Below the pieces are notes generated by a model. It made no database searches. It was given only the letters and a program-made list of their open reading frames with translations, and was not told the DNA's origin. This document shows, piece by piece, positions 25,064 through 57,331 of a stretch of DNA of 64,000 nucleotides. The stretch's first letter is position 1. The number at the start of each line of letters is the position of its first letter. The position numbers and the translations under genes were made by a program. The stretch comes from Nymphaea colorata (Eukaryota; Streptophyta; Magnoliopsida; Nymphaeales; Nymphaeaceae), in the NCBI RefSeq assembly GCF_008831285.2, contig NC_045144.1, positions 19,793,716 through 19,857,715 of the forward strand. Reading direction: 5' to 3'.

Positions 25064-26748
25064 ATGGCAATGAAGCAAACCCATTTGTTCCTCTTCCTCG
25101 TCGCCCTTTTCTTAGTTTTTGCCCTGGTGTTGGCCGGAGAGCAACAACATGAAGAGAGTGAGTCTTATTCGTTGCCTTGAGCCCTTTGACAGTTTGACAC
25201 CCACATGCACCCGTCTTTCCTTTCTTTTATATTTTATGCTTTGTAGACTTTCACTTTTATCCTGGCTAATTTCTTAAGGTTTGTCTCTCGACACAGTAGA
25301 TGGAGGCAGGACTCAAAGTTCCATCCTCTTAATTTTAATGTGTTGCTTTTTATGCAAGCCTGGCTAGATGCTTAGAGGGTGTTTGGTGAGAACATTGTGT
25401 TTTGAGGACACATTTTCCTTACATGTTTAAGAACATCACGCTCTTGATGCCCTCTTAGTGAGTGTTTGATGTGAGGAACAGAATATCACGTTCACAAAAG
25501 TTGCACACCGTTCTATTCTCGAGGTTCGCAGAGGACGGAGTTTCGGTATTAAGGGGATTTTTAAAAGGAAATGTATCTTTTTGGACTTTGAATTTTTCTT
25601 TAATTTTTTTTTTCGTTGTAAGGGGTTTCCCTTTTTATTGATCAAAGTTATTTGGCCTTTACACTACTCCAAGTATAACGAGAATGAGTTCTATGCTCAC
25701 GAAAAAGATGAAAAAAAGGTGGGGAGATGAGATATTTGAAATTGTTATAAAAAAAGGTCTTTTTTAGTCTTTTTATATATATTTTTAAATTTTTTAGTTT
25801 TATAAAAAGTTTTCTTTTTCTTTTAACAAGAAGCATTTTCATTATTAACCATATTGGTGCATAAAAATTTCATGCACCAGTGGGGCATCATAATTTACAT
25901 GTTACATCTTGATGGACCTAAGTTCAGTTATATGAAACAGCAAGCCCGAATCACAACCCTAAAGCCAACTGAAATTTATTAATTATATATGTAGTGTTTA
26001 TATGGGAAAAAAAATTCGCCCGTGGTCATGCGTGGGTTTAGGTTTAAATTTCACAACCGTTAACTATGATCTTGCATTCCCGATATGGATGATTAAACGA
26101 TGGTCAGCTTAGGCCCATCCAATTTTGTAGTAACTATGGTAACCAACAAGATCCAAAAAAGAAAAATGGCGACTTTTTGCATTCGTTGGTTTCTTTTGAA
26201 TTAACAGACAGTAACGAGATAGAATCCCTTACCTTCTTCAAGGCACAATTTTAGATCTGCAAGAGAAATTTGCATAAAAACCGGGGCAGTACTTGGACAA
26301 TCTTTATTTCCTGATCTTTATCTTCTGCAATTTTAACGGGACCATCATCACTGCAGTGGGCCACATATAAGAATTTTGCATGTGGTTCGTGCAGCAAACA
26401 ATGAGGAATTCAAGTACGAAGGAACAATCTTCCCGTCGAATGTCGACACGTAATCTAGATCGATTTGAAGGCTTCTTGTTCTTACTGTTTTCATGGTCTT
26501 CTCTTCCTTTACGTCATACTGCTTCAGGCAATCATCCCAGCTTTTCTCTGTGTTGCTCAGACGAGAACCGCATCAATGGTGCAGCTGGTAAGCTCGACGG
26601 ACTGTTGGGAGGTGGTGGTGGGCTTGGGGGAGGGCGAAGGCCTTGCTTCCGCTGTAGAATTAGAGGTAAATTCTGCTGTGGCTTTATATGCTGCTCTGCT
26701 GAAGAATATGAACAGTACATCAAGGCCCAAGGTGTCCCTCACAACTGA
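25064..26748 (+). CDS. Small secreted cysteine-rich peptide, family member 1
   Basis: Exon 1 is 25064-25157 (donor GTGAGT) and exon 2 is 26561-26748 (acceptor GCTCAG). The intron is 1,403 bp in phase 1 and the product is 93 residues. Exon 1 encodes a hydrophobic signal peptide ending LVFALVLAGEQQHEE. Exon 2 encodes a polar, Gly-rich spacer (DGLLGGGGGLGGG), then six cysteines CFRCRIRGKFCCGFICCS, then AEEYEQYIKAQGVPHN at the stop. The cysteine pattern C-x2-C-x6-CCG-x2-CCS and the tail are identical in layout in members 3 and 4. I do not recognise the family. It looks like a secreted peptide with three disulfides, or a precursor whose conserved part is the C-terminal ~35 residues. Start and splice sites are supported by agreement among the paralogues. 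Confidence 0.82.
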
Positions 26749-27237
26749 AACTGATGGGTGCTGCGCATCATTAATGTTATTAGTATGTAATTTCACATCA
26801 AGCATATGGTTGATGTCTAAATAAGAGCATGTTGGTAGAAAGCATGCAGTTTGTCGAGTGCAAGCATAAGTCCTTTGTGGCATGTGTTTTCCTTGTTTAA
26901 TGAAAACTGAATGAGCTGTTTGCCTTCAAACTTCCCTCATGCACATATTTCTTTGTGTGAGAAAAGAAAAAAAAAAAGGATAGCTGGTTGGATTGGTTTG
27001 ATTCCTTTGGCCGCTACTTCATGATGCATATGGATCTTGAGGAAGATGACATTGTTCATCACCATGAATTTGAGACGTCACAACGAGGCTGCCAATTTCA
27101 TGCAACAATTATTTCGAGTCAATCTGGGATGTAAAAAATATCGTAATGTAGATTTAAGAGTACAAGCTGTCATCTGCATCTCACTTAAAGCTCTTTTTCT
27201 CTTCCCGATCCCTCTGTCTCGCTCTCTCTGTAATCTC

Positions 27238-27245
27238 TATAAATA
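27238..27245 (+). promoter_or_regulatory. TATA box of the broken peptide gene 2
   Basis: CTCTATAAATATAAATAAGC, equivalent to the TATA box of member 1, 79 bases before the ATG. Confidence 0.65.
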
Positions 27246-27316
27246 TAAATAAGCAAAACTCGTTACAATGTACATCCAACCTCGCAGATCTGCTGTTGTT
27301 GCAGCAAGTTAGGGCC

Positions 27317-55835: not shown

Positions 55836-56820
55836 TAAACGTCTTACGTTTTGTTTCGTTAGCTCCGCAATGTACCAGTTACAATTAAACACAAGGTCTC
55901 TACGATTTTCTTCTTTAATCTAATTGCATAGCTTTTTGTCCGGCATGCATGATGAAAGTTCATTTCAATCATTTATCCAAGTACATTTCTGCTACTACTT
56001 GTTCCGGTCCATTTGTTGCTTTCCTAGCAACATAAAAGAATTGTTGAAAATCCTAGTTATTGGTACGAAATTTAAATGAAAGTTGTCATAAATTCTATAT
56101 TTTAGCTGTTATTTGCATAATGATTAGATTTCGCAGGGCAAGACAATACAAAAATTCAAAATGAGAAATATTAGCCGCTACCCACATACCTGCACTCCCA
56201 TATCATATCTGTGCCTATATTCATCCCAAATTTCATTTTGTTTTTTTCACCATTCATTATATTTAATTGGAACGGTCAATGGTAAGCAATATATATATAT
56301 ATATATATATATATATATATATATATATATATACCGGTTCGGTGTCTTTTTTCCGACCTTGAGTATCCGCATGAGCTTAGCCGGGTGCCCAGGCTTAGTG
56401 CAGGGGTGTTTTAGGACCGGTGGTTGTTGAAGCTCGTGCTTACCCGGAAGGTGAAGAGAAAACCTCACGCCACCAAAGCGCTTACCGCTTACCAAGGGAG
56501 AAGGCCGCCAGACGTCTCCGATCAATTGCTTGCCGTCTGACAGCCGAATCTCTGACGCTTTCACCAAGATATACACGTTCCTCACAGAGCAATTAAAGGA
56601 AAGGAAAAAAATAGCCCGAGTTTCCCTCGAGGAGAGGTCATCAGTTGGCGTGAAGTAGAAAGCTTACCGAGAAGAAGATTAAATGTATCCAACTACCGTT
56701 TGTATCAAACACTTACTGCTGTCAATTTGAACGATAAATGTCATAAAACACACCGAAGAAGCAGCTGTGCCAACTTGCCCACCCTGTTTTTCTCCACCTA
56801 ACCATCCACCGGGCTGGCTT
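55836..56820. other. Intergenic region upstream of peptide gene 4
   Basis: Includes a TA tract at 56288-56333. The stretch 56335-56560 is GC-richer and unlike its surroundings (TGCCCAGGCTTAGTGCAGGG, AGACGTCTCCGATC); it may be part of a transposon, but no ends were found. Confidence 0.45.
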
Positions 56821-56828
56821 TATAAATA
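56821..56828 (+). promoter_or_regulatory. TATA box of peptide gene 4
   Basis: GGCTTTATAAATACA, about 104 bases before the ATG. Confidence 0.75.
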
Positions 56829-56931
56829 CATCGGCCATGGCCGTTTCTGCACCATCAGTCGATCAATAGAGAGCAGCAGGAGAAGAGTAGTAGCCAGATT
56901 TAGTAGTGGAAGTGTTTACTGCTTATCGAGC

Positions 56932-57331
56932 ATGGCATTGAAGAGACACAACTTGCTCATCCTTCTCTCTGCCCTGTTGCTATGCTTCTCCCTCGTCCTT
57001 GCACGAGTTTATGATGAGAAACTAAGTGTGCACCTGTACTCGATATCTATTCTTGTTAATTTCGGATGTGATCATTAGAAGCTGTACGTTCTGATTGAAT
57101 TCTGTTGCTTTGATTTCAGAAAAGGAGCTAGATGGTAGCAACGTCGGCGGCGCCGGGGGACGCGCTGTAGACCAGACTCAATCTGAGTCGGGTGGTGCTG
57201 ACTTCTTATTGAAGAAGAAACACTGCATGCACTGCAAGCTGTTCATGAAGCACTGCTGCGGCTACTTCTGCTGCTCTGCAGAGGAGTACGCGCGGTACAT
57301 GAAGGGCGAAGCAGTACTCCCCCACAACTGA
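56932..57331 (+). CDS. Small secreted cysteine-rich peptide, family member 4
   Basis: Exon 1 is 56932-57025 (donor GTGTGC, weak) and exon 2 is 57120-57331 (acceptor TTTCAG). The intron is only 94 bp, again in phase 1, and the product is 101 residues. The signal peptide is MALKRHNLLILLSALLLCFS then LVLA, followed by RVYDEK. The spacer is Gly/Ser/Gln-rich. The cysteine block is CMHCKLFMKHCCGYFCCS and the tail AEEYARYMKGEAVLPHN ends at the stop, one residue longer than in the others. AATAAA signals lie near 57400 and 57492. The compact gene makes the exon structure of the family easy to see. Function unknown. Confidence 0.87.

Follow-up and report, generated by a model that had tools for sequence, protein, structure and literature searches.

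Putative paralogous genes for small, secreted-looking cysteine-rich peptides with a shared six-cysteine block in Nymphaea colorata

Many secreted plant cysteine-rich peptides have neither a name nor a known receptor. The genes described here, which appear to encode peptides of this sort, lie in a 64,000-nucleotide stretch of the Nymphaea colorata genome (assembly GCF_008831285.2, contig NC_045144.1, positions 19,793,716 to 19,857,715 of the forward strand; hereafter the window), and the described systems that come closest to them are the lybatides, the class II glycine-rich proteins (GRPs), the beta-ginkgotides and the IDA, CLE, RGF and Pep1 peptide hormones. In the lybatides (Solanaceae; Lycium barbarum) the last six cysteines are reported as C-x2-C-x(8-10)-CC-x3-CC (PMC5507927, PMC11253845), and homologous transcripts are said to suggest a C-terminal precursor tail of 12–15 residues (PMC5507927). 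Wisotide (PDB 7v5f) can be aligned with the lybatides along its length and has its last six cysteines in the same arrangement. The class II GRPs AtGRP3 and CrGRP are described as having a three-part precursor plan (PMC4777284, PMC5852109, PMC7576778, PMC8096328), and the beta-ginkgotides of Ginkgo biloba, very short six-cysteine peptides with two Cys-Cys pairs, have no angiosperm members according to their authors (PMC5522442).

Gene structure and the cysteine block

The window contains three intact two-exon genes, all on the plus strand and within 32 kb (Table 1), which we interpret as paralogous plant genes for small, secreted-looking cysteine-rich precursors. Their positions in an earlier note, made from the letters of the window (25064–26748, 47210–49427 and 56932–57331), proved exact to the base, and the phase-1 intron that it described is found by frame arithmetic in all three, since exon 1 has a length of 1 mod 3 in each and the borders of the predicted introns are GT...AG. 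Spliced as predicted, genes 1, 2 and 3 read open for 93, 104 and 101 amino acids. The exon 1 translations, read without a signal-peptide predictor, have a hydrophobic core and an A-x-A-like end, consistent with an endoplasmic reticulum signal peptide and with secretion of the products; candidate cleavage sites fall between ...LVLA and GEQQ in gene 1, ...GASA and RVYEEKQ in gene 2, and ...LVLA and RVYDEKL in gene 3. A TATAAA stands ahead of the ATG at −108, −104 and −111 in genes 1, 2 and 3, a spacing with no chance control behind it, and AATAAA occurs 95 bases past the stop codon of gene 2 and 71 bases past that of gene 3.

Table 1. Exons of the three intact genes and positions of the two decayed copies (window coordinates)
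Feature	Coordinates	Strand	Details
Gene 1 exon 1	25064..25157	+	94 nt; donor AGA/GTGAGT, open on splicing; putative signal peptide
Gene 1 exon 2	26561..26748	+	acceptor CTCAG/A, frame kept; Gly-rich spacer, six-Cys block, tail to Pro-His-Asn-stop
Gene 2 exon 1	47210..47306	+	97 nt; phase-1 donor; putative signal peptide
Gene 2 exon 2	49210..49427	+	long spacer, six-Cys block, Pro-His-Asn-stop
Gene 3 exon 1	56932..57025	+	94 nt; phase-1 donor; putative signal peptide
Gene 3 exon 2	57120..57331	+	spacer, six-Cys block, Pro-His-Asn-stop
Broken copy, duplicate of gene 1 unit	27317..29020	+	interrupted exon 1, exon 2 short by 49 bp
Probable remnant	30989..31263	+	permissive blastn pieces: intron and 3'-untranslated-region-like

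Behind a spacer that diverges freely among the genes, as the earlier note had it, exon 2 encodes a C-terminal module of 34–35 residues with six cysteines in the order C-x2-C-x6-CC-x3-CC, followed by a tail S-x3-Y-x2-Y-x-K-x4/5-P-H-N whose Asn is the last residue encoded. Six cysteines are present in the mature part of every intact gene product, and these would form three disulfides. The signature C-x2-C-x6-CCG-x2-CCS-x3-Y-x2-Y-x-K occurs three times in a six-frame search of the whole window and never in 200 dinucleotide-preserving shuffles, which puts it beyond chance. Only four of the 1264 stop-to-stop open reading frames (ORFs) of at least 30 amino acids in the window end in His-Asn; these are genes 1–3 and the broken copy, and all four end in Pro-His-Asn-stop, as had been claimed for the tail, with the small correction that gene 3 has one extra residue before these three. 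Since the four copies share descent, this reflects conservation and not independent origin.

Selection on the block was measured with Nei-Gojobori proportions of nonsynonymous (pN) and synonymous (pS) differences over 34 codons, with Fisher p values on rounded counts. The residue is identical in all three intact genes at 15 of the 34 codons, 7 of which have synonymous differences, and pN/pS is 0.33 between genes 1 and 2 and 0.32 between genes 1 and 3 (p 2.2e-5 for each). In both comparisons with gene 1 the cysteine block shows purifying selection, and the ratio near 1 that the earlier note held would tell against its reading is absent from these pairs; between genes 2 and 3 pN/pS is 0.61 and not significant (p 0.12). 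The pS values of the gene 1–2 and 1–3 pairs are saturated at 0.77–0.80 (0.53 for genes 2 and 3), so the three genes are old duplicates, and for the first two pairs no true dN/dS can be quoted.

The broken copy sits in a paralogous unit at 27050–29058 that duplicates the unit of gene 1. In a single alignment of the two units, identity is 84.9% in the 5' flank (258 aligned bases), 83–85% in the exon 2 parts, 71% in exon 1, where an insertion disturbs the alignment, and 46–70% in the intron parts. Exon 1 of this copy is split by an inserted stretch of about 180 bp (27380–27560), most of which (27383–27511) is repeated at 51247–51375 with 79.8% identity over 129 aligned columns; a second repeat pair comprises 27818–27930 in the broken-copy intron and 51610–51711 (69.9% over 113 aligned columns). 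Exon 2 has 49 bp fewer than that of gene 1, is out of frame and has lost the first C-x2-C, and its last 30 codons (28928–29017) are still readable to Pro-His-Asn-stop. Over these 30 codons pN/pS against gene 1 is 1.42 (p 0.73), a value that rests on about two synonymous changes and fits neutral drift.

Downstream, permissive blastn recovered an intron piece at 30989–31038 (E 0.001–0.008) and 3'-untranslated-region-like pieces at 31172–31224 (E 1.1e-6) and 31228–31263 (E 0.058), and found no exon 2 at 30989–31263. This is probably a second, older copy of the peptide gene; with no coding exon found, it was rejected as a gene. The earlier note's broken gene, which it mentioned without coordinates, stands, and its remnant, likewise given no position there, stands only as probable. 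The two decayed copies and the non-significant comparison of genes 2 and 3 would suit a locus of non-functional copies that merely still read as ORFs, but the purifying selection seen in both pairs that include gene 1, the three intact splice frames and the TATA boxes at similar distances leave that explanation scarcely credible.

Relationships to described peptide families

The statement that no named family carries this signature holds within Pfam, NCBIfam, PDB and open-access text. No Pfam model reached its cut-off for gene 1, gene 2 or gene 3 exon 2, NCBIfam gave no match for any of the three genes, and the best PDB matches were weak (E 0.2 or worse). The exact motif and tail strings occur in no open-access paper save one unrelated materials paper, and of the strings of the cysteine pattern one set occurs in no paper and another returned, among the matches listed, cone-snail and conotoxin work, the lybatides and one paper on viral S-acylation. 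A viral contig collection gave 600 pattern matches and a genome contig collection 84 in each of two scans with the same two peptide patterns, with no relatives in either, as would be expected where plants are not included; a plasmid collection gave three matches at E 9, taken as chance, and Rfam gave none over the whole window at gathering scores. Plant annotations may well already include an uncharacterised family with this signature. The earlier note's verdict needs qualifying in one respect, namely that the class II GRPs and the lybatides match parts of the plan.

The plan of the class II GRPs, a signal peptide ahead of a Gly-rich spacer and a C-terminal Cys-rich part in which Crip29 shows two Cys-Cys pairs, is matched in the window genes with a putative signal peptide in first place, and gene 1 has a weak match to the GRP model PF07172 (18.8 bits, E 0.0027, cut-off 30) confined to its putative signal peptide and Gly-rich spacer. 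The genes might accordingly be a divergent branch of these cell-wall proteins (AtGRP3, Cuscuta CrGRP), held in the wall by the Gly-rich part and binding a wall-associated receptor with the Cys-rich end: AtGRP3 is reported to need its Cys-rich domain to interact with WAK1, and CuRe1 to read CrGRP and its Crip21 part (PMC7576778). We consider this unlikely. Neither gene 2 nor gene 3 exon 2 matches PF07172; Gly makes up 22% of the mature part in gene 1 but 10–12% in genes 2 and 3; and, by eye, gene 1 has a single Gly run, GGGGGLGGG, with one fit to GGXXXGG and no repeats, and no such run is present in gene 2 or gene 3. Crip29, the sole class II sequence compared, has the printed order C-x4-CC-x8-C-x2-CC (PMC7576778), unlike the C-x2-C-x6-CC-x3-CC of the window genes, whose similarity to it is no better than that to shuffles (p 0.22–0.35), and CrGRP, by hand translation of a printed reverse primer, apparently ends ...AIDATKP and not in His-Asn (PMC7576778). 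Class II membership was therefore rejected on three features, the GGXXXGG repeats, the PF07172 cut-off and the C-CC-C-CC order. This last order in Crip29 of Cuscuta is also that of the beta-ginkgotides as described (PMC7576778, PMC5522442), and the two may be of one kind.

Lybatides and wisotide resemble the window peptides in being plant Cys-rich peptides whose last six cysteines run C-x2-C...CC-x3-CC, which would suit a divergent six-cysteine branch lacking the first two cysteines. Such a branch is very improbable. Lybatides have eight cysteines (C-C-C-C-CC-CC) and a loop of 8–10, whereas the window genes have six and a loop of 6, and the lybatide disulfides (I-VI, II-VIII, III-VII, IV-V, with an (alpha+pi) helix) involve Cys I and II, so that the network would need changing. 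Beyond the cysteines no similarity to lyba1, lyba2 or wisotide was found (hhalign probability 0.85%, 9 columns), and the nine pairs of window genes with these peptides scored no better than shuffles (p 0.098–0.50 with full shuffles, 0.56–0.99 with Cys-keeping shuffles). Lybatide membership was rejected for the cysteine number and the lack of similarity past the cysteines; by analogy, a compact CC...CC core may still be the basis on which the window peptide works, as in a lybatide. The beta-ginkgotides are alike in their six cysteines, two Cys-Cys pairs and very short core, but have the reported order C-x2-CC-x6-C-x2-CC (PMC11253845), and ginsentides and jasmintides were set aside since their Cys patterns differ. 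Of the 18 pairs tested, which involved six known peptides, that of gene 2 with ginsentide TP1 alone approached 0.05 (p 0.0575 and 0.044), which is unsurprising in that number.

A different use of the same layout is defence, in which the core would be directed against microbes or pests; the tail would be a propeptide that is cleaved off, the arrangement in the precursors of lybatides and thionins. Defence peptides commonly undergo tandem birth and death of the sort that the broken copy and the probable remnant represent here. The 16–17 residues that follow the last Cys-Cys-Ser also compare with the 12–15-residue tail described for lybatide precursors, whose last six cysteines come in the same order (PMC5507927). 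On the other side, the tail keeps 6 of its 16 non-Cys columns as against 3 of 12 in the core, which a discarded propeptide would not need, the block is close to neutral in net charge (−0.2 to +1.8), and lybatide 1 itself is reported to have neither antimicrobial activity against four microorganisms nor cytotoxicity to three cell lines (PMC5507927). An antimicrobial or anti-herbivore role is plausible, at less than even chance and slightly behind the reading favoured below.

A possible disulfide core and docking C-terminus

The earlier note's interpretation of these genes as precursors of secreted-looking Cys-rich peptides gains from the selection on the block, the secretion itself being read from sequence. 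It is the C-terminus that narrows the choice of mechanism most. In the HAESA-IDA complex the carboxylate of the last Asn is reported to touch two Arg residues and SERK1 to read an Arg-His-Asn motif, and IDA without the last Asn, or lengthened past it, to lose HAESA binding (PMC4848090). The (Arg)-His-Asn motif is attributed there also to CLE, RGF and PEP1 (PMC4848090); likewise, an RxR motif of RGFR1 is described as touching the last Asn of RGF1, and AtPep1 lacking its last Asn as failing to bind PEPR1 (PMC6749341).

By likening the invariant His-Asn C-terminus to the IDA motif read by HAESA and SERK1, we tentatively favour, as a hypothesis at less than even chance, that the window genes encode precursors of peptide signals of the apoplast, each with a core braced by disulfides and a C-terminus that docks on a receptor. 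Exon 2 would supply a poorly conserved, partly Gly-rich spacer and then the conserved 34–35-residue module, in which the three disulfides would brace a short core that displays the tail. The mature peptide, presumably keeping its His-Asn end without further trimming, would act in the apoplast as a signal, its free His-Asn carboxylate docking, as in IDA, in an Arg-lined pocket of a leucine-rich repeat receptor kinase (LRR-RK) together with a SERK co-receptor.

Several points weigh against this proposal. To our knowledge the IDA, CLE, RGF and Pep1 hormones are linear and have no disulfide core. None of the hormones named in the receptor reports as carrying (Arg)-His-Asn is disulfide-rich (PMC4848090, PMC6749341), and the residue before His is Pro in the window genes but Arg in the IDA-type motif. 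A terminal match of two residues could be due to chance, and the four copies, being related by descent, do not count as four independent cases; conservation of the tail would be no less expected in an antimicrobial or cell-wall peptide. Selection between genes 2 and 3 is not significant, and exon 1 of the broken copy compared with gene 1 (21 readable codons; pN 0.16, pS 0.28) is not neutral-looking, so the copy is a weak neutral control. The most novel form of the docking proposal, a Cys-rich hormone family that unites a disulfide-braced core with the His-Asn carboxylate key of linear LRR-RK/SERK ligands, we regard as improbable.

Genomic setting and significance

Judged by its neighbouring genes, the window looks like plant nuclear DNA. 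Pfam identifies a Ras-family GTPase (presumably Rab-like), a GH28 protein, which we take to be a polygalacturonase, two SQAPI-like genes, a marginal DUF761/DUF4408 match and a member of the Na/sulphate symporter family. The SQAPI-like genes form a tandem pair on the minus strand (10330–10745 and 13794–14208), 75.7% identical and with signal-peptide-like starts, which score 39.9 and 24.8 bits as SQAPI aspartic proteinase inhibitors, one above and one below the cut-off of 31.

A large inverted repeat occupies 54291–55832, its arms (54291–54913 and 55192–55832) being 94.5% identical over 641 bp. One arm overlaps the DUF761/DUF4408-like ORF at 54204–54563, and the centre (54911–55160) is a 91.7% inverted copy of 58434–58697, which overlaps an ORF at 58537–58896 with no Pfam match. 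The structure looks like a young inverted duplication with a captured gene piece and could be a source of hairpin RNA. Recent-looking tandem duplications, each about 97% identical, lie at 4828–5207 (188-bp unit) and 40227–40543 (159-bp unit), and about 350 bp at 37255–37601 are self-complementary (77% identity to their own reverse complement).

The peptide genes stand out for the unusual order of their cysteines, for a short block under selection and for a C-terminus that hints at a receptor class. If docking fails, they would be another uncharacterised plant Cys-rich peptide family, of use for annotation. If docking holds, the core would hold the His-Asn key outward to make a protease-stable ligand of the IDA-type receptor class, and Cys-rich peptides would be linked to the IDA/CLE-type receptor pocket.

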